A stretch of DNA of 64,000 nucleotides from positions 90,006,893 to 90,070,892 of the forward strand of contig CM026426.1 in NCBI GenBank assembly GCA_014871385.1, written 5' to 3'. Each line of letters opens with the position of its first letter. The first letter of the stretch is position 1. Positions 9,381 through 45,279 of this stretch are shown here, piece by piece. Both the position numbers and the translations under genes were made by a program. The stretch comes from Ceratodon purpureus. Taxonomy: Eukaryota; Streptophyta; Bryopsida; Pseudoditrichales; Ditrichaceae. The notes beneath the pieces are model-generated. The model ran no database searches. It saw nothing but the letters and a program-made list of their open reading frames with translations, and was not told where the DNA came from.

Positions 9381-9385
9381 GGCCC

Positions 9386-10405: not shown

Positions 10406-10462
10406 TGCTATATAGATAAGACGATTTGAGCAGATAACTAGGTCGAGCGCCGATTTAGAGGT

Positions 10463-10622
10463 GGGTAATCCACGCCCTCTAAAATAGCTTTGAATTCTCC
10501 AAGAAGGGGGTAATCCGCACACTTACGAGAAGATTCAAAGCTGAACGAAATATCAGCTTGAGAGAGGGTAATCCGCAACTTTCAAGACGCCAACAGTCTT
10601 TCAGGCAAGAGGGGTAATCCAC
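10463..10622. repeat. Four dispersed GGGTAATCC(G/A)C motifs in the retroelement leader
   Basis: Exact 11-mers GGGTAATCCAC or GGGTAATCCGC occur at 10463, 10508, 10566 and 10612, all in one orientation, 45-58 bp apart, between the primer-binding site and the gag start. Each follows a G/A-rich stretch. Confidence 0.8.
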
Positions 10623-22400: not shown

Positions 22401-23613
22401 CACTGCACTCCGAAGGTTGGCCGGGTCATGGGAACAAAACCTCCGTACTGATTGCCACCTATGGAAGTTGGAGGATCTCCTCCTGCACGTCCAACAGCCG
22501 GTGAAGCTACCCAAGGCTGCGAATGAAGATTCTGTTGCTGGAGTAACTGGTGTTGCGGAGGAGAAGGAATCCATGGAGGTGGTCCTTGAGGATGGGGAGG
22601 CATTGACCAGGTAGTGCCATGAGGCATAGGTGGTGGTGCGCCATTCCATGGCGCTTGACTCGGATGGTAGCTCCACGATGGATTCCAAATCCATCCCTGC
22701 GGAGTGTACTGCCACTGTCCTGACGGTGGCTGCTGTCTGCGAGATGAGTCGCTACCCTGTGAGGCTGCTGGCGCCTGAGATGGAGTTGGGGAATCGGTGG
22801 ACCCACGTCCAGGGGTTGGAAATGCAAAGTTTGTCTCCCACGGCGATGCCACTCCCGGAGCTGGGTTGGCATGCTGCTTCGTCTTTCTATTCGAGGGATG
22901 CATCTCAGACTCTGTTCTTCCGAAGGCGTTTTCATACGTTGCATGGTTTTCTCCAAGACCTAACAAGAGACATTCACACTCATCACTACTGAAATGTCAT
23001 TTGTGGATTAAGTTTTACAAGAAACAGAATCATTACGTAATCCATACGTCTACAAAATCGTTAATAAAAAACCCTAACTCTATCACGTTTAGCTACATCA
23101 CCTGTTTCGCTACTTCGCATGGGAGCTCTGTAAAGAGTTATTCACCACTTTATATATTTCATTGTGCATGATCATTCAGCTAACGAGCTTTGTGACAGAT
23201 TAGAATCAAACCTATGATCAATAAAAGACTTCTCCACATCTCTAGCCCTCTCGATAGCGGAGTAGGGTTTATAACGACATCTAGAACAGACCGTACTCGT
23301 TCATTTTTCTTTGCACCGCAACAGACAACAACCGTATTTAATTCCATGCAAATTTTCGGTGGCTTCACCACCTTCCAAACAATGGGTTCTTGTTAGCAGC
23401 GTACCAGGGATAGACTTGCGCTCCGTTCTCTGACGCTGCTGATCCGATGACGCACTGGTAGTGCTCATGGTTTGAGGCACTCTCGCTTCTAATTGCTTCG
23501 TTCGCCCACCTCCTTGCAACCTGGAACTCCTACGCGGCTCGGTGTGTACTGCCGGAGACGACAACTGTGTTTCCTCAAATTTGCTGGGCCTTGGTGGCCG
23601 ATAAGAGTCTCGC
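19462..23613 (-). CDS. CACTA accessory transposase, Transposase_24 (Ptta/En/Spm) type, exons 2-7
   Basis: Six exons on the minus strand: 23613-23405, 22959-21725, 21513-21436, 21170-20280, 19978-19871 and 19758-19462 (TAA). With exon 1 at 40438-40272 all phases fit, giving an uninterrupted 994-residue protein. Exon 3 starts with a Gln/Pro/Trp-rich low-complexity region (residues 150-290). It then has a charged helical domain with EDQWERLKDYWELPS and NINRTGRNGYAGKAAM near residues 500-535, resembling the plant Transposase_24 signature. Exon 5 has a leucine-rich coiled coil, then a basic tail (SKRGRKQTSTVKKSNRKK). The last exon has the small beta-rich domain often found at the C-terminus of such proteins. 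It is likely a nuclear, DNA-binding partner of tnp2. Family assignment is by motif. Confidence 0.75.
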
Positions 23614-23755
23614 CTGCAGGAGAAAAAAACCAATAAGCCCTAGCTGTTAAACAATTCGTGCACAGTTCGGCTGGTATGACGCTATACTTACCATGTAAGA
23701 CGTGCTACTGACTACCGTGTAAACGATAAAGACTGCTGTGTCATATACCCATGCC

Positions 23756-23850
23756 CAGGGTTGTCACGGTCGTCCGGGACGCTCGGGACGTGGGGACGTC
23801 CGCGGACGTCCGCCAGCGCCAGGGGACGTCCTGTGACTTAGAAAAAAAAA
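23756..23850 (+). repeat. hAT left terminus with GACGTCC subterminal repeats
   Basis: The terminus CAGGGTTGTCACGG is followed by GGGACGTGGGGACGTCC, GCGGACGTCC and GGGGACGTCCTG. GACGTC is a palindrome with an ACGT core. The same motif recurs at the right end but not in the internal GC blocks, so it marks ends, as expected for transposase-binding sites. Confidence 0.75.
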
Positions 23851-23859
23851 ATCACCCGC

Positions 23860-24150
23860 ATAGGTTTCACCCCGGGGTGAAACCACATCTTCTACGCGGC
23901 GGAGGGGTTGCGGGGGAGGGTGCGGCCGTCGCCGCGGAGCGGGGGGGGCCGTCGGACGCGTCGGGAAGGGGCCGTCCCCGGCGACGGCCCCTTGCCGTCG
24001 CCGCGGTGGGGGGGGCCGTCCCCGGCGACGGCCCCTTGCCGTCGCCGCAGAGCGGGGGGCCGTCCCCGGCGACGGCCCCTTCGACGGCGGTGACAGTCCA
24101 TGATCGGACGGCCCCTCGTTGACTTACGGCCTCGACGGCCGTCCTCCGTT
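23860..24150. repeat. GC-rich block 1 (GGCCGTC / CGACGGCC repeats)
   Basis: Almost pure G+C with iterated GGCCGTCCCCGGCGACGG and GGCCGTCG units. It is upstream of the hAT transposase, about 250 bp before its start codon. Long open frames here on both strands are by-products of base composition. Confidence 0.8.
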
Positions 24151-24175
24151 GATTTTTAGGGCTTACCCCTTGGCA

Positions 24176-24210
24176 TTTCAGGGAATGAGTATAAAAGACC
24201 CCTCCTGAAA
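24176..24210 (+). promoter_or_regulatory. TATA box within an inverted repeat, hAT transposase promoter
   Basis: TATAAAA at 24190-24196 lies between TTTCAGG (24176-24182) and its complement CCTGAAA (24204-24210). It follows GC block 1 and precedes the ATG by about 210 bp. Confidence 0.5.
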
Positions 24211-24401
24211 GTTGCCATTACACTTCTGAATTGTACTCCATTTGCTACTAGTTGCACTAATATACGTGTGTATCTGTTGCATGGTGAACGGCGGCGTTCA
24301 GAAGTGTGTTGAATTGGAGCTTCTTCGGAGGCTCTAGTTCTCTTGAGGACGTGGTACCCCGATTTTTTGAAGTTTTTCCGGGCGATCTATCAAGTGCACC
24401 A

Positions 24402-27386
24402 ATGGCGTCTAAAAGTTACTCCCCATGGTATACCGAAGTCCATATGATCGATGCGGAGAAGAAGAAGACTGAGATGGTTCAATGTATGCTATGCAAGAAC
24501 ACTTTCGCAAAGAGGATTGAGCGGATGCTCAGTCATTTGGGCTATGACAAAGTTCTAGGGGTACGGACTAGTGGAGTAGGTCGTTGCACTAATTTGTCAC
24601 CCGCTATACTGTCCTTGTTCAAGAATTGCGGTGGCAAATTCCCTAACGACTCCTGAATATTCATGTCGGAGCAGAGTACTTCCCCGGTGACTCGTGGCAA
24701 TATATCCCCGAGAGTGAACACTCCCATGGATGTGGACTCATGCGCTGGATCCCGGGTTTCTACTCCGAAGAATGAACCCGTTTTATTTGGTGAGGGTGTA
24801 CCTTTCATTTCCACTTTTCCGGGGGAAGGTAGTGGACCGTTTCCTCCTTTGAAGGCAAAGAGGCAATCTACCCTTCAAGAGGGCTTCGAAGAGACTCAGA
24901 GGCGGGAATGCGACAAAGCATGGGCCACATTTTTTTACGAGAACAGTATCTCGTTTAACGTGGCTCAGAGTGCCTCTTTCAAGGACGCGGTGTTGAAGAC
25001 GTCCAACATGAAGAGATCATACAGACCTCCATCTTACCACCATCTCCGAACAAATTTACTAGCCCAAGCAAGGACTGATTTGGAGACTTCCTTGAATGAT
25101 AGGATTTTTTCAAGTGTTAGGAAGTACGGGGGAACGTTGGCCCTGGATGGGTGGACTTCTGTAAGCAGTCGCCCTCTAATAAACGCAATGCTGGTATCTC
25201 CAGCTGGTGAGTTATTCTTGGGAGCCGTTGACACGAGTGGGAAAGAGAAGGATGCTGTTTTCGTAGCAACCGTCATTGAGAAGTTTATCCAACAAGTTGG
25301 AGAACAGAACATCATTCAAGTATGCTACGATAATGCTCCGGTGATGCTTAATGCCGGAAAGTTGGTCCAAGCACTCTATCCATCCATATTTGTCCAAGGA
25401 TGTGCTGCCCATGCGATGGACCTTTTGTTGGAGGATTGGAGTAAGATGAAGTGGGTGAAGGAGCTCCTAGATCGGGCTAAGAACTTGGTTAAGTTCATAA
25501 AGATAAGGCAAATGCCACTCTCGGTATTTTGAAAGCACGAGGCAAAACTTAGCTTGCTGATGCCTGGTCAGACTAGGTTTGCATCGCACTACATTATGAT
25601 TTCGCGTCTACTGAAGGTTCGAGGAGCATTGGAGCAGAGCGTTGTGGATCCTGAGTGGAGAAACTACGAAACGAAGAAGACCTTATCTGCCCGTGACAAA
25701 GCGAAGATCTCACGCGATGTCAAGAGGGTTGTCTTGGATGACGTTTTCTGGGAGCAATGTGCAAACTTCAAGTGGATGACGAGTCCCGTTGTATATGCCC
25801 TACGAGAGTTTGATGCGAAGGAATCGGCATTGGGTAAAGCCTACGTCGTTCTCCGCAACCTTGAGAAGCATGTTCTCTCTTTACGCCATGAGCCCTTCAA
25901 ACTAGACTCAGACAATGCTGATTACTGCGAGGACTCATTTTACGAGCGTAAAGCCATGATTAAATCACCCTTACAGTGTGCTGCTGCGCTTCTAAACCCT
26001 TATCTTATTGACGATGAGGACCTTCGCAATGATACTGATGCAATGGCATCGGCGAAGGAGGTCTTGTTGTCGATGGCTCCTCCGACACTGAAGAAAGTGG
26101 TCATAGAAGAGTTCTTTGCATTTCGTGAAGCTTATCCTCCGTTTCGTGACGTACGTGAATCCTCTAAGTCACAACTGCCGCCTTCTGGTTGGTGGAATAT
26201 ATACGGATCCGCTGGTAAATTCATTTCCCCAATTGCAAAAAGGATTTTAGCTCAGCCCCTGTCTTCTTCTTCATGCGAGCGGAATTGGAGTAGCTACTCC
26301 TTTGTCCACGACAGGAAGCGAAACCGTTTACTTCCGGAGAGGGCTAATGACCTCGTGTTTGTGTATACAAATTCCAAGATAATTTCCCAGTCCAAGTTGA
26401 GTGCCTTAGGCAGGTTCTACGGGGAGTTGGAGGGGAAGGAGGATCCGAAGGCCGTGGAAACCGAGGATGTTGACTACTCTAGTGAGTCTGATGTTGATCT
26501 ACCCTTCGATGATCTATCAATTGACCCCCCCATCGAGGCCCCACTCGACGACCTCGAGGTGTCTCCGAAAGGAAAATCCCGTTGTTCTCCTGCGCCAATG
26601 GAGCGTGCTTTCGAGTATGATGATGTCGAAGAAGAAGGTAATAACGAGGAGGATACGATTCCTCTTTCCTCTTTTTTGAATGGAGACGGTTTATTAAACA
26701 GTGATAAGATTCTCCGGGGAGGATCCTCTCATACTACCGTGGATTTGGTCATACCAAAGAAAGAGGGAGACCCCACCATTGATACTTCTAAGGTTGTTTC
26801 TCCAAACTTCAACCGCCTGAAGGACGATATGGTTCCACCCACTACAAAGGAGGATGTGCCCGTACCCGTATCGGGTGCATCTCGCACATTGTTTGGAACT
26901 GCAAAGACTAGGGTCCAAGTTGGTGGGTTCGAATCGTCCACGAGGTTGGTTGAGTTGTCTAAAAAAATGAAGGCAGATGCTAAGGCTGCTGAAGTAGCGG
27001 AGAAATGTAGGAAGAGATTGGTCCGAACCCGACAAGCGGACCCGGGCCTCCTCTCTACTGATGTCGGACTTCCAATTGGGAATCTCTTTGGGCCGAAGTT
27101 GGCTTTGGGAAAACCGGACATATTTCCTGAGAAACCCCCTGCTAGAGCCACGTCCAAGCGAAAGGCTATAGACAAGACTCAGAAGGTGTTGGCTTTCAAT
27201 CCTGGTAGGCCAAAAACTCCTTTGGATGACCCGAATGGCCCAAAGAAATTCCTGAACCCATTCGAGTCAAAGAAGAAGAGTAAGGCGAGGGTGAAGAAGG
27301 TACGCGAGAGCGATGGCGATGACGAATACGATTCTTCCGGTCCTAGTGGGGCCAAAGTGAAGGACGACAGCGATTATGTGGCCTGA
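24402..27386 (+). pseudogene. hAT transposase (BED finger, DUF659, hAT dimerisation), two stops
   Basis: From the ATG at 24,402 one frame runs to 27,386 (994 sense or stop positions). A BED-like zinc finger (VQCMLCKNTF...HLGYDK) is near residue 27. The DUF659/RNase H-like core follows with LALDGWTS near 247 and FVQGCAAHAMDLLLED near 330. The C-terminal dimerisation domain has SSSSCERNWSSYSF near 620. In-frame TGA codons at 24654-24656 and 25530-25532 (positions compatible with former CGA arginines) break the protein. An unusual extension of about 340 residues after the dimerisation domain is acidic, then Lys/Pro-rich. It converges with the RING gene. Confidence 0.88.
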
Positions 27387-27747
27387 TTGGGCACGATAGT
27401 TAGAAGGCGGCATTTCCAGTGCACCACCCTAGAATGCCACTCTTTTATGAATGTCCATTTCTAGAAACCATTATCATATTATATCTCATTTAAGCGGTGG
27501 TGCTTGCCTCTTCAATATTGTCCTCCACGTTGTGTACTTATTTTTACTTTGATTGTACTTCTCGCAATTTCTTTCTCGTAATGAATGTACACAATCTACA
27601 TATGAAGTTCGATGCATCTAAGTACTAACAATTCTTTCAACACAAATGCAACTCCGATAAAACATAAATGAAATTGTATTAAAACCAGAGGTAATTTTTG
27701 CAAGTACATATAGAAGTAGTGTAAAGTCCATACACCCGGCTCCGCAA

Positions 27748-27794
<47 letters not shown>

Positions 27795-27876
27795 TGCTCT
27801 AAATACGACTATCACCCAGTGTATTGTCACATTAACCGTAGTAATGCGGGTACCATGTCCAACGTAAATACTCTAC
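27387..27876. other. Convergent 3' region between hAT transposase and RING gene
   Basis: 490 bp of A/T-rich sequence serving as shared 3' flank. It contains the AT microsatellite and AATAAA-like stretches, but no gene. Confidence 0.5.
27751..27793. repeat. (AT)n microsatellite, about 21 units
   Basis: An uninterrupted AT dinucleotide run. Confidence 0.98.
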
Positions 27877-30800
27877 TCAACGTCCATTGTTTGCATTTGA
27901 CCTCCGAGTTTGGCGTCGCTGGCTTGGATGTGTAATCGTACCCCCCGATCGATATTCTTCTTCCACGCGATCCAAAGAACGACGATTATCTTCCCCCCAT
28001 TCGGGATCATCTTCATAAGGGTTGTCTCGATTGCGCTTCTTGGAATTCTTCCCGTTCCACAACTCCTTTGCCTTGTCAATCTTGGCTACTGTTTCTTGCA
28101 CAATCTTCTCAATCCTATTGCGTGACCAACGAGAGGAATTATCCTCCGCACGAAGTGCCCTCCTCCAGTCGTTAACTATTTTCTGAAGAGCATCGTCAAA
28201 CTTCTCAGTGATCACCCAGTAGTCTAGGTCCGAATATTTGAAGGATTCCTCTGTAAAAGTGCGACGATGCAGAATGGCTTCTTCTAGTTTGGCCAATACA
28301 AGTGCCCTACCAACCGGGGTTCTGTCATACATCTTGTACTCATCAAGTTGGCCATAGTCCCGTTCTACTTCTCTTCTCTTACCGTCGGCATCTACCACAA
28401 CTTCCGGTTTTGGAAACCGGAAGAAGCGATTGCGATGTATACTCCAATGTCCACCGAAGTTCCTACAAAAAAATTCTCGGTCCTTGGCATCCGGAATTTC
28501 ACTTGCCCTCATCTCCACCTCATAGTCGTGTGTCATCCATGAAAAATCGTCCATTCCGGCATCGTTAGCCGTAGATAGTTGGTGAGTCATTGTCTCCGGG
28601 TTCCAAGCCAGTGATTTGCCCCAATCATAATAATTCAGCTCTTTCTTAGGTAGTTGGTCTAGTGGTAAATTCCACCGATCAAACTCATGCCCAGGCGGCA
28701 TCACGTGTTGTAGTCCCAGCATCTCGTAAAAACGTGAACTAATTGGGGAGCGACACATAACACACTGTTTGTTGTTTAAAGCAGCCTTCGCGATGCAGGT
28801 TATGTGGAACTTGTGATTACAATTTCCCATCTGAAAGGCCCCTTCCGGCCCAAAATATTGTTGACAGATGGGACACGTTTCCTTCGAATATTCCTCCGAC
28901 GGTTTGCGGGTATGGATAACCACACGTTTCGATTCATCCAAATGAGATGATAGTACATCGTACGGCATCCACCCCTCCTCGACCTCTAGCGCCCAGTCAA
29001 TGACCCCTTCTTTATTTTTGGAACTATGTAATGTGCGCTCCATCATTTCTCCTACATCGCGCCATATCGTGATTTTTGTAGCATCCTCGCCGCCTTTGGC
29101 TGCTGCCTCGTTATACTTCTGTAAAGATGATTGGATAGCTTCTTCGACATCCATAGAAGTAATTGCACATTTCTTCATATCCTGTTGTGCTCTAGAGACT
29201 ATTGTCTCCTTATCTCGTAGTTTGTGGACCCAACCAAGCCATGATAATGCCCTTATGGAAGATGGTGTATCATCTACCATCTTTATGGTGGTCTTCAGCC
29301 TTTCCAGTTCCGTACGGGCCTCGTCTCTTTCCCTTCTAGCCACCTCCAAATCCCGTAAAAGAATGTCTAATTCTATTGAATCATCCATTGGCCCTTTTCC
29401 TCTATCCTCATGTCCTGGTGTTGCTTGGCTAGAGCCAATGTCCAATGGAAGTGGACCAGATGTCATTTTAGACTTCTGAGACGCCATCCCTTGTGTGGCC
29501 CCATCTCCACTTTTATTTGAGAATTTAGAAAGGCCAAGGTCATCGGAATCCTCACCATCGCTCTGTACTTCAATGATACGATCCTTTCCTTCCACCTTCA
29601 CCACTTCCTTCTTCACCGTAGGCTTCACTTCTTTTGTTTTGTTTTTCTCCTTCTCTACCGGGTGGTAGATTTTGCACTCTTCCAATTGTGCAAAAAAACT
29701 CATCTTCACATGGTCCAACCTTCTTGTCAAACTCTTGATTTGTTCCGTTGCATCCATTAAATCCTTACTCAGAGCCACGTTCTCTTCGCCTAACTTCACA
29801 CGGTCTTCCAGAAGAGGCTTAATGGAAGATGCCAAAGTGTCAAAGCCAAGGGCACCCTGTATCATGCCCGGAGGGATACTTCCAAATGCATGAGCCATAT
29901 TTATGAGATCTGGTGCCATAGCGCCTAATACGGAAGCCCCTTCTTTCAGGGTGTGTGCAATCTTCAACACATTATGAATTTGTTGCACTTCCTCCGTGGT
30001 TTTTCTTGCAGCGTCTCCCTCTGTGGTATTCTCTAAGCCCCCACGCTGTTCATCAGAGGACACCTCCGTCAATTTGATGCTAAAATCTAGTAACTCCTTC
30101 AATGATTCATTGTTTGGCATCGACTTCACCAGCTCCATAATCTCCGAAATGGATTGAACTGCATCCTTTGTGCTATCCTCTTCGGTAGGCACTTGTACTA
30201 TTGCCAAGGAACTTGGACCATCATCCACTGAACGAGGGTTGGAGCATCCGGCTTCCGCAGCCGTAAGATGTGTTGAGCAGTCATTGTCCACCTCCACTTC
30301 CACCTCATCTACGGCTGCCTTGCCCTTTGTATCGTTGGAAGATTTCACCGTGATTTCCAGGTCTGCTCTAGGAATAGTAGGGGCATTAGTTTCTGTGGCA
30401 ACGGGGAACATCGTAGCGATCACATTGGCAATGGCAACGGGCTTCTTTTCCTCTGGACGATGCGGAGTTTCATTCTGTACTTTTTTTACTTCATTCTTCG
30501 GAAAGCTCTTTAGATGTGGCCACTGCCGCTTTCGGAACTCCGCTACAACCTTCTGTGCTTGCAAAGGATCGATCAGATATAAATCCGGAATGTCTCTTAC
30601 CATCCATCCAATTTGCAACGGCCTGTCTTTCGTAGTGGGGTACGTACACCAACTAATCTTCCGCTTCAATATTAGCTCCGCATATACCATACTGCAAATG
30701 GTATAATTGAAATGGCCTTTGCTGGGCTTCCGTTGCCCAAACATAGTAGTCCAGACTTCATATGCCCGATGCAAGAAATGGTCATCCATGCATGACCAGG

Positions 30801-31047
30801 GCTTGCAACTAAAAGTCCGTGTGTTCATCTCGTGTTCTTCTCGGGGCCACAACTTGTCAATGTGATACATCTTCACATACTTCTTACACTCCTTGAAAGT
30901 CCAGAAAATCTCCCCTACAGATTCCCAGCCTTCTTCTGCTACAATGTTTTTGTTGTCTAGGATCTCCCAAGAAAAGTTGTGGCACATTCCCTTCGGCCTG
31001 TTCCTCTTCCCGGTTCCTCCAATCTCATCATGTTCCGGATCCGCCAT
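27877..31047 (-). CDS. Large RING-H2 protein with SUMO-interaction-like motif (hAT cargo, putative E3 ligase)
   Basis: An uninterrupted single-exon frame of 1056 residues. The N-terminal domain (residues 30-180) has ECKKYVKMYHIDKLW and MVYAELILKRKISW and is shared with the next hAT gene. A low-complexity acidic middle follows, then coiled coil at about 430-480 and 570-600 (RRERDEARTELERL). DRIIEVQSDGEDSDD near residue 495 fits a SUMO-interaction motif (two hydrophobics, x, hydrophobic, acidic run). A RING-H2 finger (CPIC...CNHKFHITC...CVMC) lies at about 724-766 with all eight zinc ligands. The C-terminus is highly charged. SIM plus RING is the layout of SUMO-targeted ubiquitin ligases; that function is inference. 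It is transcribed from GC block 2 and converges with the transposase. Confidence 0.8.
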   Translation of the reverse strand: MADPEHDEIGGTGKRNRPKGMCHNFSWEILDNKNIVAEEGWESVGEIFWTFKECKKYVKMYHIDKLWPREEHEMNTRTFSCKPWSCMDDHFLHRAYEVWTTMFGQRKPSKGHFNYTICSMVYAELILKRKISWCTYPTTKDRPLQIGWMVRDIPDLYLIDPLQAQKVVAEFRKRQWPHLKSFPKNEVKKVQNETPHRPEEKKPVAIANVIATMFPVATETNAPTIPRADLEITVKSSNDTKGKAAVDEVEVEVDNDCSTHLTAAEAGCSNPRSVDDGPSSLAIVQVPTEEDSTKDAVQSISEIMELVKSMPNNESLKELLDFSIKLTEVSSDEQRGGLENTTEGDAARKTTEEVQQIHNVLKIAHTLKEGASVLGAMAPDLINMAHAFGSIPPGMIQGALGFDTLASSIKPLLEDRVKLGEENVALSKDLMDATEQIKSLTRRLDHVKMSFFAQLEECKIYHPVEKEKNKTKEVKPTVKKEVVKVEGKDRIIEVQSDGEDSDDLGLSKFSNKSGDGATQGMASQKSKMTSGPLPLDIGSSQATPGHEDRGKGPMDDSIELDILLRDLEVARRERDEARTELERLKTTIKMVDDTPSSIRALSWLGWVHKLRDKETIVSRAQQDMKKCAITSMDVEEAIQSSLQKYNEAAAKGGEDATKITIWRDVGEMMERTLHSSKNKEGVIDWALEVEEGWMPYDVLSSHLDESKRVVIHTRKPSEEYSKETCPICQQYFGPEGAFQMGNCNHKFHITCIAKAALNNKQCVMCRSPISSRFYEMLGLQHVMPPGHEFDRWNLPLDQLPKKELNYYDWGKSLAWNPETMTHQLSTANDAGMDDFSWMTHDYEVEMRASEIPDAKDREFFCRNFGGHWSIHRNRFFRFPKPEVVVDADGKRREVERDYGQLDEYKMYDRTPVGRALVLAKLEEAILHRRTFTEESFKYSDLDYWVITEKFDDALQKIVNDWRRALRAEDNSSRWSRNRIEKIVQETVAKIDKAKELWNGKNSKKRNRDNPYEDDPEWGEDNRRSLDRVEEEYRSGGTITHPSQRRQTRRSNANNGR

Positions 31048-31275
31048 AGTAACCTCGTTTTAAACAAAAACGATATGGTTTTGTTTTAAAGAAAACAAGG
31101 AGTTGATAAATGACGTTTACAAAATAACGAATACAGAAAATTCAAAAACTCCCCCCCCCACAATAAAAAGGGACCCCCATCTCCTCACCCCCACGTACCA
31201 ACAAGCTCCCAAGTGAATTGGGAAACTGTAGCAATAGGAGAGGGACTATTGAGGAGAGTGAAGTGAGGAAGTGGG
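31048..31275 (-). other. 5' leader of the RING gene
   Basis: About 230 bp between the ATG and GC block 2, with a C-run near 31,150 and a CACTTCCTCACTTCACTCTCC-like pyrimidine-rich stretch beside the block. No other gene. Confidence 0.4.
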
Positions 31276-31830
31276 GGACGGCCGTCGCCATATATGGCGA
31301 CGGCCCCCAACCCTACGGCCGTCCCCCCGAGCCTAGTGCCGTCGCCACCCGATCCTACGGCCGCGGCCAATGGCCGTCGTCCCAAACCTGATGACGGCCG
31401 TTGGGGGACGTCGGGTCGGGGGCCACGGCGACGGCCGCGGAGGCCCGTTCCTCCGCGGCCGTCCCATCGGGCCGTGTCCTCGGCGACGGCCGTCCGATGA
31501 AGGCCGTCACCGAGGGGACGGTCTTGGAGACGGCCCCCGAGGGGGCGGCTTGCGGCCCTCCGATCGCGGCCGTCCCCGCGGCCGTCGCCGTCCGATGGCG
31601 GCCGACCGCGCGGCGACGGCCGCGTAGACGGCCTTGGAGACGGCCGCGGGGACGGCACCGTCGGCGACAGCCCGCGGCCGTCCGATCGGGGCCGTCTCCA
31701 AGGCGACGGCCGTTCGATCACGGCCGCGATCGAAGGGCCGTCCCCGCGGACGGGCCCTCGCGGAGACGGCCCACAGCCGTGGAAACGGCCCCCGACCGTG
31801 GATACGAGGCCGTCGCGGCCGCGGGAAATT
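31276..31830. repeat. GC-rich block 2
   Basis: Iterated GGCCGTCCGATCG, GACGGCC and CGCGGCCGTCC units over about 550 bp. It lacks the GACGTCC motif of the element ends. It is upstream of the RING gene. Confidence 0.8.
31280..31305 (-). promoter_or_regulatory. TATA-containing perfect palindrome, RING gene promoter
   Basis: A 26-bp perfect palindrome made of GGCCGTCGCCATA and its complement. The centre CCATATATGG is both TATA-like and an exact CC(A/T)6GG CArG box. It lies at the inner edge of GC block 2, about 245 bp before the RING start codon. Confidence 0.55.
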
Positions 31831-33780
31831 TCCCTCCCCCCCCTTTTTTAAAATACAAATGAAAAAAACATATAATGCTACATTTTCCGACCACATATTA
31901 CACTAAACCTGTTAATTTCTTTCACCAATTAAAATGAGAACAGCAGTTAATGTAAACATGAATTAAAATACTTCATGGTATGCAAAGCATCTAAATTCTT
32001 CAACGAGTCATTATTCCGTACGCTCCACTGAAGTTAATGTATGTGTCATTGATTCGAATCATTATTTCTGTTGTTTCTATCCTACGCATTTCAAGGTGGT
32101 CTATCATCGCACTCCAAAAGTTCCTTGCAGAAATCGAACTCATCTAAACTTGTTTCAGAAATTGTAATCTAAATAGTTCTCCGTCTTCTTATTCTCCGCT
32201 TTGATTTTTTGTTTTTTTAAATACATAAGTGCTTCTATTATACTTTCATTAAACGGCTTCATATTATCAATTTAATTCGAGTTACCATCTCTTTATGTAC
32301 TTTTAACGTTCCTCCCTCTATACAATTTCCACTTTCGAATATTGTTTTCATTTACCTCTTCTTTATTTTCCTCTATGTTTATCCCCCTCTAGTTTATGCC
32401 CTTTTTTTAACGTCTAATTTGTCTAATTTAGAACTTCAACCCTCGAAGCTCCATAAATGTCATTTCGTGAATTTCTTCCTTTCATATCGTTTTGATCGTT
32501 CGTATTTCGATTTATTTCCTCCATGACCCATGTTAAAGTATATTTTACTAATTCGACCACTATTCCACCATTTTACCTGTTAAATTCTCTCATTCGTGCT
32601 TGTTAAATTCTCTCATTGTGTCATTAGTAAGTGATTACTTTTGTACGTATGTACTATACATTGTACAAGTTAGAATCCAATTCCATATTTATATTTACGT
32701 TAAAGTGTATATGAATAAACATATATTTGTATAGAGTATAATGTAAATGTGTTACCTAATTTATTTATTTTATTTCATATAAGTTGCAAGGTACAACTCA
32801 ATTCTGGGCGTTGGAAACTAGAATTGTTTATAAAAACAATGATTTCAATTATAGTCGTTCACAAATTGGCATTATTCAGTGACGGTTGAATGTTTTCTGT
32901 TTTAATTTTGTTTTTACTATTATCCCTTCCTCATCTCATAATGTGAGCTAGTGATTTTTTTTTTTTTTTTAATGATAACACAGTACTACGGTATGGAAGT
33001 TTGTAAAATAAAAGACATTAAAGAGCAAGGAGAGTTTTTATATTTCATATAACTCTAAACCAGCCAGGAGAAATTAGAATTGGACCATTTGTTATGAAAA
33101 CAATGATTTGAGTTTTATTCTTCCATGAATTGCATAATCCCAAGAGAATTGAATGTTTGTTTTGGTTTATTTCACTTTATTATTATCTCCAGTTTCTCTC
33201 ATAATCTAAACTACTATTTATGTTTTTATTTTTGATTCTACCATAATACTAAAGAACGAGAGTATGTAAAATTAAAGAAATAAAACTGGGGTAAATCATT
33301 CCATTAAAAATTAGAGTCAAAGAATCTATATAAATATTTTCATTGTATACCACTAATCGAAAAGAAATTGGATCTATATTTCTAAGAGATTACCCTAAAC
33401 CGTAAACCGGTGAAATATAAATGCAAATCTCTTAACCATTTAAACGTAAGGTGCACCGCATGAAAAACCAAGTGTGTACATCAATTTATGCGTTGAATTA
33501 CTTCTAGTGCATTCTCTCCGCGATGTTCCTCTTATCATATTGTTGTTGACATTTACTCTTTTGATTCGTTAGTATAAAATGTTAATTCATTACCGTATGC
33601 TAAAACATGAGTAACTTCGTTTCTTTAAATGACAATTGGTAAAAACTGTTTTAGTGTACCCACAATGTTTACGGTTCTTTCCATTCAATAGGATATATAT
33701 TCTTCTTCATAAACGTGTTGACATTATTTGTAGATCCTAGGGGGTTATCCACCCCCAAAGAACCAAAATATCACATAGTT
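31831..33780. other. A/T-rich spacer at the centre of the hAT
   Basis: About 1.95 kb of A/T-rich DNA between the divergently oriented RING gene and the 35-kb gene. It holds a T run at 32,957-32,970 and many short pyrimidine-rich stretches, but no open frame or RNA gene that I can support. The base composition contrasts sharply with the GC blocks on either side. Confidence 0.6.
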
Positions 33781-33891
33781 CATTGGATCCCAATTTCAAA
33801 CGTCGACCCTACCTCCCCGATCACAGGATCTTCAGGACATTCCCCACAATATCCGGGATATGTCTGAATTTTCCATTTGTAGGAGATATGC

Positions 33892-33925
33892 TGTCCAAAC
33901 AATCCCAAGTGGGATTGTTTGGGAC
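33892..33925. repeat. Short inverted repeat before GC block 3
   Basis: GTCCAAACAATCCC and GGGATTGTTTGGGAC face each other around a 4-bp loop, just outside a G/A-rich stretch leading into GC block 3. Confidence 0.75.
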
Positions 33926-34004
33926 AAGAAGGAGGGGGGAGAGTAGGGGAGGAGCGGGGGGAGGAGAGGAGAGAAAACACAAGGGGAGGGGAGTTCCTTC
34001 GACC

Positions 34005-34680
34005 CTCCCCCCCCCTCCCCGGCCGTCCCCGGGGACGGCCACGGCCGACCCCGCGTGGACGGCCGTCGCCCACGGCCGTCGGATCTTCTCCGACGAGAAG
34101 ATCCTACGGCTGCGGACGACGGCCGTCCACGCGGGGACGGCCTTGGCCGACACCGCGGTCGCAGCCCCCCGACCCCGGGGTCGGCCGCGGCCGTCCCCGC
34201 GGGGTCGGACAAGGCCGTCCCCGGGGACGGCCACGGCCGACCCCGCGGTCGGAAGGTCCGTCCGCGTGGACGGCCGTGGCCGACCGCGGGGTGGAGCACG
34301 GCCGTCCCCGCAGGTCGGACACGGCCGTCCCCGCGGGGTTCAGCACGGCCGTCCCCGGGGACGGCCACAGTCCACCCCGCGGTCGGAAGGGCCGTCGGCG
34401 TGGTCGGCCGTGGCCGACCACGCCGCTGCAGCCTCCGACCGCGGGGTGGAGCACGGCCGTCCCCGCGGTGGGCCGCGGCCGACCCCGGGGACGCCCGTCC
34501 ACGTGGTCAGCCGTCCCGACCGCGGGGCGGCGGTCCACCGACGCACCCTTTGGGGAGCGGTCGCGGCCGCACGACCGGTCGCGGCCGCGATCGTGGACGG
34601 CCGCGACCGCTCCCGCGACGGACCAGTTACGGCCGTTGGATTCTCCATTCCCCGAGATCCAACGGCCGTAGGGGGGCCGT
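34005..34680. repeat. GC-rich block 3
   Basis: Iterated GGCCGTCCCCGGGGACGGCC, GACCGCGG and GTCGGCCGTGGCCGACC units over about 680 bp, many of them self-complementary. It is upstream of the plus-strand gene at 35,070. Confidence 0.8.
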
Positions 34681-34710
34681 CGTTTCACCTAACTGGCTGT
34701 CTAGGGGTTC

Positions 34711-34733
34711 GGGCCAGCATAAAAGGCTGGCCC
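34711..34733 (+). promoter_or_regulatory. TATA-like box in the loop of a perfect hairpin
   Basis: GGGCCAGC (34711-34718), loop ATAAAAG, then GCTGGCCC (34726-34733). It directly follows GC block 3 and lies about 350 bp before the ATG at 35,070. Confidence 0.5.
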
Positions 34734-35069
34734 TGCTTCCTTTTTCTTCACTTGGGTGCTCGTGCTACATGTGCTGGATTTACTTCAGCTCAGTTGCGTT
34801 CCTCCAAGCTTTTTCTACTTCCTGACGGGTTATCGTGGGTTTGTGTTTAGGGTTGTCAGCACCGTTTGTTGGTTATTATGAAACCAACAATATAGTGCTT
34901 CATACGTACGATTTTTTTGGCAGGAGTTCTAGGTTTTGTTTTAGTCCTTATGCACTAGATATATACGAGATTAAATCAACTTTTATACGGTGGGGAAGAG
35001 TTACTCGCATTGTTACAAGGTTGGTTCGATACACGGTATTCACAGCTACTCGCTTACCGGACTTTCGCC

Positions 35070-36557
35070 ATGCCTCGTAACGTCCGGGGAGGACCCTCCA
35101 CTCCTAAAAGGAAACACCCCTTGGATCCATACGCTACGAAAGACCCTGATTGTGTAGCACAGTTTGGATGGGAGGGGGAACCATCACCATGGCGAATGGT
35201 AACTTGCAAGGAATATGTCAAGATGAAGCACCTCATGAAGTTGATCCCAGTACATCTACGTACCGAGGCTGCGGAGAAACAGGCAACACGGGCAGAGATA
35301 AGGATCGACAATTGTGAAAGTAATCATTTCAAAATTCGATATAACGAGGTGTTTCGAGCAGCACGAATCCAGAGCTCCCGACCTCATATCATGTTGTATT
35401 CGAATATGGCAATGGTGTGGGCGGAGATAGTCTTACACAAGAGGGTTGACTGGACCACAGTCTCGGGCCTCAGGACAGATAGAATGAACAGAGACAGCAT
35501 GGATCTTGTAACAGACTAGGGTGGACATAGCGATTGTCCCCCACTATATATTTCAAACCGTTGGAGTCCACCGGCACAAGATGCTGGAATACAAACTCTA
35601 GCCATCGAATATAATGATGAGGAACAGGAGAGACGTCGTTTAAGCTATGATGATGAAGACAACTATTGAAGGCGTCCCTCAAACGAAAATCCCAGGAATC
35701 GCAGAGCGTATCGTGGCAGAGAGTCATCGCGTACCAACCATGAAGAGTATGGACAAAGCTCTGCCCACGGGGGACACCGTTCGCAAGATCGTCAAGACAT
35801 GGGACCCCACGAACGGGGCTATGGCCACGGGGAACCGGAAGGAGCTGATTTACCCTTTGACTTTACGGATGGTGCGTATGGACCGTATGGGGGACGACCG
35901 TGGCCAGATTATGCAACGGGATCAAGATACTTTAGTAACTATGACGACGGCTGGTCGGAAATACCGAGTCCTCCAAGGAGTGCTAGTCCGCGCCATCGAA
36001 CACCTCTGAGAGAGGTACCTCACGGTTATTCTCCAGATCGCGAAGAAGATACGCAGAGACTGGGACGTGATGATTACGCAACTCCCCCTCCATACCGCGG
36101 ATATGGTGGTCATGGTACCCCATCTGCCCTATTTGCAGAAGATGATTACAGATCATCTTCGCGGACTCCGCCTGGAATATTTCCTCCACCTCTAGGTTAT
36201 CACACCGACGGTACTGATCACAATAGCGGGGACAACCGCAACGTACTTCATCGCGATGACAGAGTACCACCTCCTCCTTTTGGATACCCTCCCGGTCGAG
36301 TTGTAAGAGATAGCTATTTTGAGGAAGAACTAGAGTTGGAGCGAACAAGGCAAAATTACGTACTACAGATAGAGAATCATGCGTTCCACCTAAGACAAGA
36401 TAATCGAAGATTGATGGAGGAGAGAGAGAGACTTCTGAGAGCCTCCACAAATTCTGCAAGGCACGGGCCACAAGAAACGTACGATCGGGGAGGTCCAAGC
36501 GAACTCCCCAATGATGGGAACTATTATCATCCATATGACTACAATGGATTAGGGTGA
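35070..36557 (+). pseudogene. hAT cargo gene sharing the RING protein's N-terminal domain; two stops
   Basis: From the ATG at 35,070 (MPRNVRGGPSTPK) a single frame continues to 36,557, about 495 codons, interrupted by TAG at 35517-35519 and TGA at 35667-35669. Residues 50-145 contain TCKEYVKMKHLMKLI and MVWAEIVLHKRVDW, matching the RING protein's N-terminal domain in spacing and residues. The second half is Tyr/Gly/Pro/Arg-rich low complexity, ending in a coiled coil (ELELERTRQNYVLQIENHAF) and an acidic tail. No known domain recognised. The two parts lie in one frame, so this is one gene with two nonsense codons. It is transcribed from GC block 3. Confidence 0.65.
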
Positions 36558-37522
36558 AGGGGAGACTATTAGAATGGGGTGCATGGTAGTACTTTCTACA
36601 GCATCGGAGCGTACCGAGACTTTAATGTAGACTTCGCATATTACAAATTTACAACGGAAAGTAAAAGATGCAAGCATAGTATGTACGTAGTTTGCAGTTT
36701 TGTAGATGGAGGTTTAAAATGTACGGACTCAAGAATACAGGCACGTGCCACATTTTGCAAGTAGAATAGATATAATTAGTGTTTTAGAGTGTAGTTGTGT
36801 TGTCTTTTATATTGTAGTTGTCTTCACATTTGAAAGGAATTTACCTTTTTAATATTCTCCTAGCCGTATTCGAAGTGCACATTACTATCAATATCACTAT
36901 TTTTAAAATGACAACTTCCTATTGACATGGGTTACGAGTCTACGGCTTACGAGCACTAGAATATAATGAATCTCAAGACAAGTATGCAAAATAATTTTCA
37001 ATTATTTTTTTGGCTAAATTAATAAGAATATCGTGAATGATATTTTTTGATGGATGCATATTTATATCTAAGGTATTTGTTTGTACAGGGGATTATGAGC
37101 AATCACGTTTTGCGGCCCTTACGCTTTCGTCTTCACGAAAAGAACTTGAGTATACGCTTGCCAATATTTGTAAGAATAAAAATTACAAAGCATAACGGTT
37201 ACAATTCACATATCGCATAATTTTCATAATTAGAATTGAGAGTATTGACTTTTAGCTAGATGTGTGGAGCCAATCCGTTTTCCTCATAATACAAGGGGTA
37301 GAAATAGACCAATCTTAGTACAGAGACCATATTTGAACCAAATGCAAGTAAACTTTATAAACAAAATATTGACCGGTGTACAAAAATTGAGATTCCAACA
37401 TCTCATAATAATATAGAGTGTAAATATGACTATTCACTACTAAGAGCTATGCCCGCCGTCCGGTAACAAAAAAAACATTATGCTTTTATAGGAATACGGA
37501 AAGGTAGATATGTAACTCCATA
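36558..37522. other. Convergent 3' region between the 35-kb gene and the kinase-like gene
   Basis: A/T-rich, about 960 bp, no gene seen. It is the counterpart of the 27.4-27.9 kb convergent region in the left half of the element. Confidence 0.5.
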
Positions 37523-38986
37523 TCAGTAACCCTCGCGATAGTGCTCGATGGGAGTGGGCCAGTTGTGTGTATCTCTGAAACGGTTAATAAGATGTCCGAG
37601 TCCACCAATCGTTCCTCTGTTGTTTTGGCAAACTCTCTCAAGGTAACCTTCGAAAACCATTGCGAGTTCTCCGATATTCTGGAAATGGCGTGTTTCTACT
37701 GGCTCGGCTTCGTGGTATGCCGTGTACATGTTGCCCCTGTTGATCTTCGCAGCTGCGAAATCCTCCGATGCAACCGTCAAATCTGGAATGATTTGAATAT
37801 CTTGGTTTTCCTTGTGTACGTATACCACGCGAGGATCCACCCAGTATCGCCTCCTCATAGTCTCCTCCTTCTGATGGACACTCTCAAAAACCCAAGGCGA
37901 CCTTCTGTTCTCTAGTGTCTTCGTCATCAAGCCCCAATCACAAACCTCGATGTAGATCTTGGACTCATCTTCCGGAAAGTGAAGTAGGATGTTGTCCGGT
38001 GACAAGTCATTGTGGAGGTAACCGTATTTGTGTACGGCATCTATGATGTTACACAATGCCCAAGCAAGCTCTGTACGCTTACTTCGGAAAAGTTGGAGAC
38101 GCTTCCCTAGAATCGAACTGTCGTCTGCATTCTCTCTGAAGATGTAGTCGATGGGGAGGTCACCCGGGGCCTCGTTGTCTCTCTGTAGCATGGCTCGAAG
38201 GGTCCCACCGTTCCACCAGAACATGAATCCCACATGTTCCAACTGATGAATGGCCTGGAAGCGGATGACACCAGGATGGGGAATCCTTATCGCAAGAGAT
38301 TCATTGTTGTGGTCCACACGTGCCAAATCCGGCCTCATAGACCAATTGAGCGGCCGTTTCTCAGCAAACTCCCAGTATGGTGGGATTTGCGGGTTTCCTT
38401 CGATACGAACCCTACGTATGGTAGCATAACCACCTCTCTGGACTTCCTTGTCCAAGTAATAGAAAACTGCAAAGTCTGCCAAGATAGTCAAATGCCGTTT
38501 ACGTAAGTCAGCCGCCGTCTCCATCCCAATCGGAGAATTCCACCAAGTAATAGACGCCCGTCGATGCTTTCTTGAGCTATGGGGCGCCATTAGTCTCGTG
38601 AAGCAATCTGCCTTTGCAATAGTATCCTTGAAGGCCTCGACTCCCCCCCTTTGCGCCTTTGCATACTTAGTAATAACCTCTTTAGCATTCCATAACGCAT
38701 CGTGTGCACGTTGTGACACGAAATGATCGTAACCGGGCTTCTGTGTATCCGAATGCCAGCACGGATCCATCAAACGATCCCTAATCTTTGTCTCCATCTC
38801 TGACTTGAATTTCCTGGGCCCATCTTCCTCATACCGAACGTAACGACTATTCAATGAAACAAGGGTATTCTCCTGGTAAAATTCCACGATGAATGCCACA
38901 ATATAATCCTTGCAACGTAAGCTCAGCATGTCATCAAATTTGTTCGCCCATTCCCCCACATTCTTCTGCTTCTTATTCTTCGGCAT
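37523..38986 (-). CDS. Protein-kinase-like protein (hAT cargo)
   Basis: An uninterrupted single-exon frame of 487 residues. The N-terminal 190 residues are unassigned and charged. A possible glycine-rich loop, VQRGGYATIRRVRI, lies near 195. The catalytic loop HNDLSPDNILL (near 323) corresponds to HRDLxxxN, with the Asp and Asn present but Arg replaced by Asn. CDWGLM (near 345) corresponds to the DFG magnesium site with Phe replaced by Trp. A clear VAIK lysine was not identified. Activity is plausible but unproven; the substrate is unknown. It converges with the 35-kb gene and starts beside GC block 4. Confidence 0.72.
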   Translation of the reverse strand: MPKNKKQKNVGEWANKFDDMLSLRCKDYIVAFIVEFYQENTLVSLNSRYVRYEEDGPRKFKSEMETKIRDRLMDPCWHSDTQKPGYDHFVSQRAHDALWNAKEVITKYAKAQRGGVEAFKDTIAKADCFTRLMAPHSSRKHRRASITWWNSPIGMETAADLRKRHLTILADFAVFYYLDKEVQRGGYATIRRVRIEGNPQIPPYWEFAEKRPLNWSMRPDLARVDHNNESLAIRIPHPGVIRFQAIHQLEHVGFMFWWNGGTLRAMLQRDNEAPGDLPIDYIFRENADDSSILGKRLQLFRSKRTELAWALCNIIDAVHKYGYLHNDLSPDNILLHFPEDESKIYIEVCDWGLMTKTLENRRSPWVFESVHQKEETMRRRYWVDPRVVYVHKENQDIQIIPDLTVASEDFAAAKINRGNMYTAYHEAEPVETRHFQNIGELAMVFEGYLERVCQNNRGTIGGLGHLINRFRDTHNWPTPIEHYREGY

Positions 38987-39117
38987 CGTGGAAAGCCTTC
39001 AAGGCTTCAAGAAATCGTAACCGCAACTCCAAAGAAACCCTCAATTCCCACAATGATTAATAAGAGCAATACAAATCCAAAGGGTTTTAAAAAAAACCGT
39101 TTAAAAATTCGAAAAGT

Positions 39118-39143
39118 CCCCCCCCCCCCCCCCCCCCCCCCCC
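39118..39143. repeat. 26-base poly-C run
   Basis: An uninterrupted C homopolymer in the leader of the kinase-like gene (poly-G on the coding strand). The true length is uncertain because such runs are error-prone in sequencing. Confidence 0.9.
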
Positions 39144-39259
39144 AAATGAAGGACCCCTTTCCTCCCGGTGAGAACGACCAACGGAGAAGGATCAAGTCCC
39201 CCACCAGTAGCAATCAGCCTCACTCGAAAAGGGAGAAAAAAGGTAAAAAATGAAGAGGC

Positions 39260-39284
39260 GGCTTCCCCTTATATAGGGGAAGCC
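39260..39284 (-). promoter_or_regulatory. TATA box in the loop of a perfect hairpin, kinase-like gene promoter
   Basis: GGCTTCCCCT (39260-39269), loop TATAT, then AGGGGAAGCC (39275-39284). It sits at the inner edge of GC block 4, about 285 bp before the ATG at 38,986. Confidence 0.55.
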
Positions 39285-40089
39285 GACCTCGCGGCCGTCC
39301 CCACGGCCGTCCCCGCGGCCGTCCGATCTACGCCCCCGCGGCGGTCCGATCGGGCGCGACTCCACCCGAAGGCGCCGGCCGTCCGATCGGACGGCCGCGT
39401 CGGGCGATGGCGCCGCGTGGCCGTCCGACCGACGCGGCCGTCTCCGCGGTCGGCCCCGTCTGCACGCGGTCGGCCACGCGGACGGCCGTGTCTCCCCGCG
39501 GTCGCCCACGCGGACGGCCGCGGGATCGGACAGCCCTCCGCGGCGGCCATGGTCGGCCGCGGAGGGCCGTCCGATCCAGTGGCCGTCCCCGCGGCCGACC
39601 GCGGAGACGGCCGCCCGATCGGACGGCCCACCCAGGCCGACCATGGCTGCCGCGGGCCGTCCGATCCCGCGGCCGTCGCCGTTGCCGACCGCGGGGACGG
39701 CCACGGGGACGGCCGCGGGATTGGATGGCCCGCGGTCGGCCGCGCCGATCGAGCGGTCCCCGATGGCCTGCGCTGGGATCGATCCGGGCCGTCGGATCCC
39801 GCGGCCGTCCCCGAGGCCGTCCCCGCGGTCGACCGCGGCGATGGCCGTGGGATCCGACGGCCCTGGAGGGCCGCCCACATCGGACGGCCCGCGATGTGCC
39901 ACCACGGCCGCATCTTGGCCGTCAAATCGACGTGCGGCCGTCCGCAACGACCCCGCGGCCGTCTCCGCGGCCGTCCCCGCGGCCGTCCCCGCGAACGGAC
40001 GGCCGAGATGAGGCGTGGTGGCGGGATCGGCCGATCGGACGGCTGGGGAATGTTTTTACCCCTCCGGGGTCGCAAAATTATTACCGCGG
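39285..40089. repeat. GC-rich block 4
   Basis: About 800 bp of CGCGGCCGTCC, GGACGGCC and GACCGCGGGGACGGCC units between the kinase-like promoter and the right end of the hAT. Several long open frames on both strands are composition artefacts. Confidence 0.8.
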
Positions 40090-40192
40090 CGTAATTCTCG
40101 AGCGTCGGGGACGCCACGTCCGGGACGGGGGACGTCCGGGTCGGACGTCTTGACGTCCGGAGCCGGGTCGGACGTCTATTTGAACAACCGTG
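40090..40192 (-). repeat. hAT right terminus with GACGTCC subterminal repeats
   Basis: GACGTCCGGGTCGGACGTC and TTGACGTCCGG, then GTCGGACGTC, precede the terminus ...TTTGAACAACCGTG, which complements the left end. It is followed directly by CCCATGCC. Confidence 0.75.
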
Positions 40193-40271
40193 CCCATGCC
40201 GTCTAAATCGGCACGTGGCACTGGAGTGAAGCTGATGTTTCGCAATTAGGGTGAGCATTGAAGAAACTTAC

Positions 40272-44219: not shown

Positions 44220-44281
<62 letters not shown>

Positions 44282-45279
44282 AAATGAAAAAAATTAAAAT
44301 TAAAATTAAAAAATTAAAGAAAAAACGTCTCATATGTTCAGAGGAGCATGCTACCATTCTGTTTTCAGATATCGAATCAGAAGTGTGTGTCATATTAGAT
44401 TGTGAGTGTACATTATCCCCTGTGTACTTTTTTCAAATATCAGTTAATGCAGTGGACGTTTCAACTTGTGCTAATTCATTGGAACATTGAGTGCTGTATC
44501 TGTCATTGTAATGACAGACTCCTTTTGGTGTTCGTAGGCAGTGGGAGGAACTACAGAAAGAGGACAACACCATCGCGCCCTTTGAGATGTGGATTCGAGA
44601 AGTAATATTCCGACGCAATATTGTGAACCCTAGTGGAGATGATTTAGACGCGGTTAAGCTTTGCAGTAAGCCAAGCATGAAAGCGGAGAGATTTTGTAGA
44701 ATTAAAGCGTTTGGTAACCACTTCCGCATCAAAGATGAACGCACGGAGACAGTAGACACCTATGACTGCGGAGTTGTTTGTCTTCATGAATGGGTTACAG
44801 AGGACGGACATGTTACGAAGAGGTATACCGTGGGTGAGATAATTGATATTATTCGATTGGATTATGGAAAGCTATTTACACCAATCGTCTTATTTAAATG
44901 TAGTTGGGTGAAGGCTACTGACAACCGAGGGAATCCAACATACATGCGAGATAGAGATGGATTTCTCATTGTTAACTTCAAGCATAGAGAAAAGAAGGAC
45001 CATGATCCTTTTATATTTCCGGAACAGTGCTCGCAGGTGTTCTTCTCTGATGAAAGAGATCGCAAGGGTTGGAAAGTCGTCATGAGGACAGAGCCACGAT
45101 CACGTCGAGTGATGCAAGAAGTACCAGACGAGGAAATAATTACCACGTCTGCGGAGGCACCTGGTCTACAACCGCCGTCAATAGAGAATATTCCCCCCTC
45201 CAGAGGATTGGCATCGGCTATGGAGCTGACGGATGAAGAAAACCGACTTGCTATGTCAGACTTTCGAGAATGTACTTAA
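41230..45279 (+). CDS. tnp2: CACTA transposase, tnp2 family (Transposase_21, DUF4218, DUF4216)
   Basis: Three exons, 41230-42942, 43175-44082 and 44538-45279, join in phase through GT-AG introns of 232 and 455 bp into an uninterrupted protein of 1120 residues. CPCMDC near residue 12 is the end of a shortened transposase-associated zinc region. The Transposase_21 core includes LSADGMTPFKLYRS near 350 and GTIACPPCG near 470. DUF4218 covers about 660-800 (YPVERYNKTLKKYV). DUF4216 lies at about 975-1060 (VLFKCSWV, then PFIFPEQCSQVFF). No stop or frameshift is visible, so the element may be autonomous. It should cut at the CACTA ends in the nucleus. The N-terminus is short, and a 5' exon may be missing. 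Confidence 0.88.
44223..44278. repeat. (TA)n microsatellite in tnp2 intron 2
   Basis: About 28 TA units, followed by a run of AAATTAAAATTAAAA. Confidence 0.97.

Follow-up and report, generated by a model that had tools for sequence, protein, structure and literature searches.

A 64-kb window of the Ceratodon purpureus genome (bases 90,006,893-90,070,892 of contig 6; by window we mean this whole stretch of DNA) contains a hAT element of 16,437 bp at positions 23756-40192, with an exact 8-bp duplication at both ends. Besides a hAT transposase gene, the element carries genes for a RING-H2 protein, for a protein that shares an N-terminal domain with it (ORF4) and for a protein-kinase-like protein, laid out as two convergent pairs, transposase/RING and ORF4/kinase (Table 1). 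A preliminary description had proposed a single hAT transposon with three non-transposase genes, and this proposal is supported by whole copies and by empty sites in the 362.5 Mb of genome searched. We consider it nearly certain that the element and its gene content are real.

The duplication CCCATGCC is perfect, as previously described. It occurs once elsewhere in the window (12432-12439, minus strand), where 1.5 occurrences would be expected anywhere by chance; unlike such chance occurrences, the flanking pair sits exactly at the element ends. The left end reads CAGGGTTGTCACGG, starting at 23756, and the reverse complement of the right end is CACGGTTGTTCAAA, which matches the left terminus at 8 of 9 bases. 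All ten other loci fetched have ACAACCCTG as their right end, so the window's copy has one substitution there. The short inverted termini noted earlier are indeed terminal inverted repeats of the CAGGG type (CAGGGTTGT / ACAACCCTG). When the flanks, joined with one 8-bp copy, were used as a query against the genome, 20 places were found. Two are the window's own flanks and 18 cross the junction unbroken at 77-98% identity, two of them at 98% over 214/215 bases. These 18 matches are paralogous empty sites, that is, other copies of the surrounding CACTA-like repeat; the preliminary description had sought empty sites in related strains, and those found here lie within the same genome.

Further copies of the element were located through its genes. 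A genome search with the kinase scored 88 places among 1,130 candidates, 88-100% identical and 57 of them without a stop. We fetched ten of the 87 other loci for reading. Eight of them hold complete elements, 16.3-17.2 kb long, with these termini and with all four genes in unchanged order (transposase, RING, ORF4, kinase), an outcome that the preliminary description had named as support. All six whole copies with both flanks readable are enclosed by perfect, mutually different 8-bp duplications, the remaining two having N on one side. The other two fetched loci are a contig 6 locus in which, over the stretch fetched, the left part and an internal piece are missing, and a truncated locus on contig 13. 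Of 20 kinase loci, counting the one in the window, 19 showed the right terminus. In the copies examined one duplication encloses all four genes, which bears out a single unit rather than separate duplications for each gene.

The same association was seen with the other genes. The RING search scored 44 places among 1,591 candidates (35 without a stop), and a listed kinase stands in register for 30 of the 44, against about 0.001 expected for each. One of the 14 RING copies without a listed kinase was read and proved to run on across the kinase region as far as the right terminus at 96% identity, indicating that the gene lists miss real copies. Among 72 transposase places, scored among 1,176 candidates, 53 are accompanied by a listed RING gene, a listed kinase or both (12 RING only, 14 kinase only, 27 both). 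A 26-base left-end pattern, allowing up to 3 mismatches, occurs 309 times in the genome, versus once for the reversed control. Its gene tally, which covers 100 listed places on contigs 1-7, all perfect matches, gave 21 left ends with transposase and kinase, 16 with transposase only and 8 with kinase only. Nine full copies are 97.05-99.68% identical in pairs, and most of their variants occur in a single copy only (in the transposase, 108 of 124), a pattern resembling a recent burst. The element belongs to a hAT family that has amplified recently and has four genes in its full form.

Several copies showed peculiarities of their own. Two copies on contig 8, at ~4.00 and ~4.69 Mb (L027/L028 and L033/L034), are 99.68% identical and share the octamer CCTGTGAG on their sole readable flank, on the right in one and on the left in the other, with N opposite; perhaps they are a single insertion split between misordered assembly contigs. 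The kinase loci L006 and L007 (contig 4, 21.81 and 21.84 Mb) have a common flank past the right end, by segmental duplication or as an assembly duplicate. Two further copies, L042 (right end at 9293) and L002, continue past their right ends with an identical octamer, GTAATGAC, and with unlike flanking DNA beyond, through coincidence or site preference. Near 32576-32594, about 600 extra bases are present in three of the ten loci that we fetched (two on contig 6 and one on contig 13), within the region 32001-34000, which is AT-rich (32.6% G+C) and lies between two GC-rich blocks of the element.

Table 1 Features of the hAT element, in window positions
Feature	Position	Strand	Description	Basis
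Target duplication, left copy	23748..23755		CCCATGCC	single copy in 18 paralogous empty sites
Left terminus	23756..23764	+	CAGGGTTGT	sequence; 309 genome matches of the 26-base pattern starting there
Transposase GC-rich block	23756..24170		GGACGTC near end, GGCCGTC, ~44-bp tandem unit	motif counts
Transposase promoter candidate	24176..24210	+	TATA-like core, arms 7 bp, spacer 21	weakest of the four
hAT transposase gene	24402..27386	+	994 aa where open; two in-frame stops here	DUF659, Dimer_Tnp_hAT
RING-H2 protein gene	27877..31047	-	1056 aa, open	zf-RING_2, alignment
RING GC-rich block	31240..31870		23 GGCCGTC on either strand	motif counts
RING promoter candidate	31280..31305	-	perfect palindrome with CATATATG core	identical in 9/9 copies
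ORF4 GC-rich block	33950..34735		20 GGCCGTC on either strand	motif counts
ORF4 promoter candidate	34711..34733	+	CATAAAA core, arms 8 bp	inverted-repeat scan
ORF4	35070..36572	+	500 aa in other copies; three in-frame stops here	frame comparison between copies
Protein-kinase-like gene	37523..38986	-	487 aa, open (491 aa in other copies)	Pkinase, alignment, model
Kinase GC-rich block	39250..40192		28 GGCCGTC on either strand; GGACGTC near right end	motif counts
Kinase promoter candidate	39259..39285	-	TATATAA core, arms 11 bp	inverted-repeat scan
Right terminus	40184..40192	+	ACAACCGTG	ACAACCCTG in ten other fetched loci
Target duplication, right copy	40193..40200		CCCATGCC	sequence reading

All four genes are single open frames in most or some of the full copies, the full-length frame being open in 3/9 for the transposase, 7/9 for RING, 7/9 for ORF4 and 6/9 for the kinase. 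The two cargo frames described as open in the window, for RING and the kinase, are indeed so. The transposase matches DUF659 at 126.3 bits (cut-off 34.7) and Dimer_Tnp_hAT at 39.7 bits (cut-off 21.4), both above their cut-offs, and zf-BED at its N-terminus at 16.7 bits, below the cut-off of 20.6. A 10-row alignment conserves the stretches DGW, DNA and CERNWSS, which may hold the catalytic Asp-Asp-Glu residues. The identity of this gene thus stands, while the frame in the window is interrupted rather than intact; a stop-free transposase of 1,026 aa, 98% identical, is present in the protein database. The element belongs to the hAT superfamily, and it is the multi-gene form that is new.

The RING protein, 1056-1061 aa across open copies and frameshifted in one full copy, matches zf-RING_2 at 32.3 bits (cut-off 27.3), as its earlier assignment would have it. 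The zinc ligands C725 C728 C743 H745 H748 C751 C762 C765 are invariant in 6 sequences, and the solved structures nearest to the domain are those of RNF24, Arkadia and RNF38. The protein thus has the eight-ligand domain of RING-H2 ubiquitin ligases, and its ligase activity is putative. The predicted model (mean pLDDT 38.1) is too poor for a fold search. ORF4 has in common with the RING N-terminus a domain of ~108 residues (33% identity, E=3e-10), so the sharing noted previously is real, whereas the frame is broken in the window; beyond this domain it is rich in Arg/Gly/Pro/Tyr and looks disordered.

The kinase-like protein matches Pkinase at 25.1 bits, below the curated cut-off of 31.7, yet its residues and its model agree with a kinase. 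Across 46 sequences K210 is kept in 46/46, D327 in 42/43, N332 in 43/43 and D350 in 41/42, presumably in the Lys, HxD and DxG roles. The predicted model (mean pLDDT 80.8) shows a helical domain at the N-terminus and, after it, a kinase fold, and Foldseek returned many kinases at E ~1e-6, with query-normalised TM-scores of only 0.29-0.40. A predicted kinase fold with the Lys, HxD and DxG residues is therefore present, and catalysis is putative. The window gene lacks four codons relative to other copies. Its closest named relative is KC19_VG055000, a hypothetical protein of Ceratodon purpureus (95% identical); on our reading of "VG" as the V chromosome, contig 6 is the V sex chromosome of this species.

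To assess selection, we compared the nine full copies. Pooled dN/dS was 0.45 for the transposase, 0.41 for RING, 0.37 for ORF4 and 0.28 for the kinase. Against a neutral expectation whose mutation spectrum was taken from synonymous changes, CpG included, amino-acid changes amounted to 0.62, 0.60, 0.56 and 0.42 of the expectation, respectively, in a sample of copies picked by their kinase, with rates from the same data and frameshifts uncounted. Stop variants numbered 0 versus 8.0 expected in RING, 4 versus 7.0 in ORF4 and 1 versus 2.8 in the kinase. All four proteins are constrained, and the past selection on cargo previously argued from the open frames is supported by amino-acid changes below expectation.

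Four GC-rich blocks, one upstream of each gene, reach peaks of 0.72-0.81 G+C. Counted on either strand within the 64-kb window, 82 of the 86 GGCCGTC motifs lie in these blocks (11, 23, 20 and 28, in the order of Table 1), none within the four genes and 4 outside the element; 500 first-order Markov copies of each block gave means of 0.4-1.0 and a maximum of 5. The motif GGACGTC (18 occurrences on either strand, overlapping palindromes counted twice) stands 6 times in the left block and 5 times in the right, once each in the RING block and the transposase, and 5 times outside the element, and its placement at the ends suggests candidate sites for the transposase. The ~44-bp tandem unit (23968-24099) has 3 units in the window and 3-9 across the nine copies.

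An inverted repeat that encloses a TATA-like core stands between every gene and its block; its arms measure 7, 13, 8 and 11 bp for the transposase, RING, ORF4 and the kinase. Our first TATA scan used words partly added after the promoters had been viewed, so it was repeated in word-free form. The word-free scan found eight AT-cored inverted repeats in 64 kb, three outside and five inside the element, and four of the five are the promoter candidates. The fifth, also upstream of ORF4, lies at 34866-34890 (arms 9 bp), between the ORF4 promoter candidate and the start codon. Of 400-bp segments drawn at random, 5.0% contain such a repeat. The arms are unbroken in 8 (transposase), 9 (RING), 7 (ORF4) and 8 (kinase) of the nine copies, which are too alike for this to be strong conservation.

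More distant relatives were sought in a protein database, with the RING and transposase matches drawn from the best 8,000 candidates each. There were 45 kinase matches (21-96% identical in the alignment), at least 5 RING matches (26-81%) and at least 67 transposase matches. The second and third family clusters run roughly parallel, with 54/5 members for the kinase, 59/6 for RING and 33/3 for the transposase. RING match P0047 and transposase match P0053 are both on contigs of 7,321 bases, and kinase match P0033 and transposase match P0074, each 47% identical over the aligned part, are both on contigs of 27,639 bases; on the equal sizes alone, linkage in diverged elements is suggested. The family kinase P0021 is assigned in the database to a "Bacilli bacterium" metagenome assembly and is probably moss contamination. 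A scan of genome contigs with the kinase found no prokaryotic relatives, and scans of viral contigs found no relative of RING or the kinase, so a viral origin was set aside.

The surroundings of the element are themselves repetitive. CACTA/EnSpm-like pieces flank it at 20217-22966 (-) and 41230-45279 (+); a weak Transposase_24 match (18.6 bits, below the cut-off of 28.7) lies to the left and Transposase_21 and DUF4218 to the right, with DUF4216 also among these pieces. Splice-like signals on both sides, recognised by eye, suggest insertion in an intron, and the element seems to lie in an intron of a minus-strand Transposase_24-type gene. Pieces of a Ty3-type retrotransposon (gag/Ty3_capsid, reverse transcriptase, RNase H and integrase) are found at 6279-10522 (-).

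What the three extra genes do for the element can be framed as a proposal. It is likely that the cargo serves the element. The transposase would bind the terminal GGACGTC and move the element by cut and paste, and the three extra proteins would act on the element's behalf. ORF4 or RING, which share the N-terminal domain, would most likely recognise the GGCCGTC arrays, and the putative RING ligase and kinase would modify or remove host chromatin factors there. The four promoters may thereby be kept from silencing, making the cargo an anti-silencing or self-regulating toolkit that can be likened to VANC of Arabidopsis VANDAL elements, with unrelated proteins. This anti-silencing step is a tentative suggestion. 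It is doubtful, though conceivable, that the cargo forms a self-contained anti-silencing system convergent with VANC, in which the TATA cores in inverted repeats act as the switch.

Several observations weigh against this proposal. In each of the nine full copies at least one of the four frames falls short of full length, and no autonomous copy was therefore seen among them. Transposase stop variants numbered 7 versus 5.8 expected, that is, no deficit, while RING shows one. A Pfam search with E up to 1 gave no match in ORF4 and recognised no DNA-binding domain. The arm sequences differ among the four inverted repeats, which argues against one protein reading them. A comparison of CpG decay, as a mark of unmethylated blocks, gave no clear answer either way, the array alignment being noisy. 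In addition, the gene lists show no RING or kinase for 19 of the 72 listed transposase copies, and no transposase or kinase in register for 55 of the 100 listed left ends. One of these 55, read over 4 kb, had the end and a repeat block with no element gene and no right end there, and it is probable that non-autonomous relatives with the same left end exist beside the four-gene form.

The cargo might instead be captured host genes that were amplified by passive hitch-hiking before they decayed and are of no use to the element. This would fit the several copies in which at least one gene is interrupted by a stop or a frameshift, and also a diverged, open kinase relative on contig 3 (L041, 5038-6522), which shows that the kinase family extends beyond the element: over the 8.5 kb read, it is accompanied by no other long frame of the element. 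This gene, in which Gly of the second DxG is replaced by Ser, may be either an element remnant or a host gene; an aquaporin-like frame, recognised by eye, is its neighbour. However, the cargo is constrained at least as much as the transposase, the RING gene lacks the stop variants expected of it, and RING relatives down to 26% identity retain the eight Cys/His. The equal contig sizes suggest linkage to the transposase in diverged families as well, and every cargo gene has the element's own predicted block promoter. We therefore regard passive hitch-hiking as unlikely.

Action on the host, through a transmission or cell-cycle bias for carrier cells rather than regulation of the element, appears still more improbable. 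A ubiquitin ligase and a kinase could target cell-cycle proteins, and contig 6, 30% of the genome, holds 53 of the 88 listed kinase copies. Yet any transposon would be expected to build up on a chromosome that does not recombine, contig 6 also holds 25 of the 31 stop-bearing kinase copies listed, and to our knowledge no host phenotype is known. Although the four GC-rich blocks are alike and could be element ends, a composite of nested mobile elements with a separate insertion for each gene is ruled out for practical purposes by the unbroken paralogous empty sites with a single 8-bp copy and by eight further copies, at other sites, that have these four genes between these ends.

If the cargo does form a self-contained anti-silencing system, this would be a hAT transposon with a signalling-type counter-defence and its own regulatory code. 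A hAT family with three extra genes, uniform block promoters, many near-identical copies and probable non-autonomous relatives offers a natural comparison of cargo-bearing and cargo-less elements in one haploid moss, so that what a transposon gains from accessory genes becomes directly testable. It is also a warning that transposon cargo can be annotated as host genes, as with KC19_VG055000.

Ac/Ds of maize and other plant hATs have an 8-bp duplication, CAGGG-type ends, a hAT transposase and non-autonomous relatives sharing an end, and the moss element resembles them in all of these features; Ac/Ds, however, is ~4.6 kb with one gene, in contrast to ~16.4 kb with four. Few plant transposons with whole, selected non-transposase genes are known to us. 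Lanisha DNA transposons have reportedly been found in the Ceratodon genome. In the part of the source available to us, that lineage is described as EnSpm-like (PMC12730594); Lanisha would thus be EnSpm/CACTA-like, in a group with 2-5 bp duplications, whereas the moss element is a hAT. No description of a four-gene hAT in moss was found among the titles and abstracts that the literature search listed, with the Ceratodon genome paper outside that search.

The nearest known cases that we found are hAT7/IS3EU and VANDAL/VANC, neither of which has the moss gene set in the sections of the papers seen. The rust-fungus TET+ hAT7 and IS3EU are described there as DNA transposons with a non-transposase enzyme thought to counter silencing, IS3EU having transposase, TET/JBP and alpha-kinase genes in conserved order (PMC12730594). 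The likeness is one of DNA transposons, some of them hAT, with putative counter-silencing cargo. The differences lie in the duplications (7 bp for hAT7 and 6 bp for IS3EU, versus 8 bp in moss) and in the fungal elements' TET/JBP and alpha-kinase cargo, with no RING, no ORF4 and no mention of block promoters in the sections consulted (PMC12730594). Among the Pfam matches of the moss element there was no TET/JBP dioxygenase.

VANDAL, presented in the same partial source as the best-studied plant transposon with such genes, is Mutator-type (PMC12730594). As far as the excerpts consulted go, VANDAL21/Hiun carries accessory genes, and its short motif is amplified as noncoding tandem repeats and rare elsewhere (PMC5735166, PMC10398659). 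Both it and the moss element are thus plant DNA transposons with accessory genes and a motif enriched in noncoding parts, counted here in the window only (PMC5735166, PMC10398659). In VANDAL21/Hiun, VANC binds the motif (PMC5735166); unlike it, the moss element is a hAT with unrelated proteins and putative motif binding. By Pfam matches, with no direct comparison to VANC, no VANC homologue was found, ORF4 giving no match and the other two proteins none above cut-off apart from RING and kinase. The target repeat units of VANC change in number between copies in the text available (PMC5735166), and the ~44-bp unit of the moss element, with 3-9 copies, shows the same dynamics.

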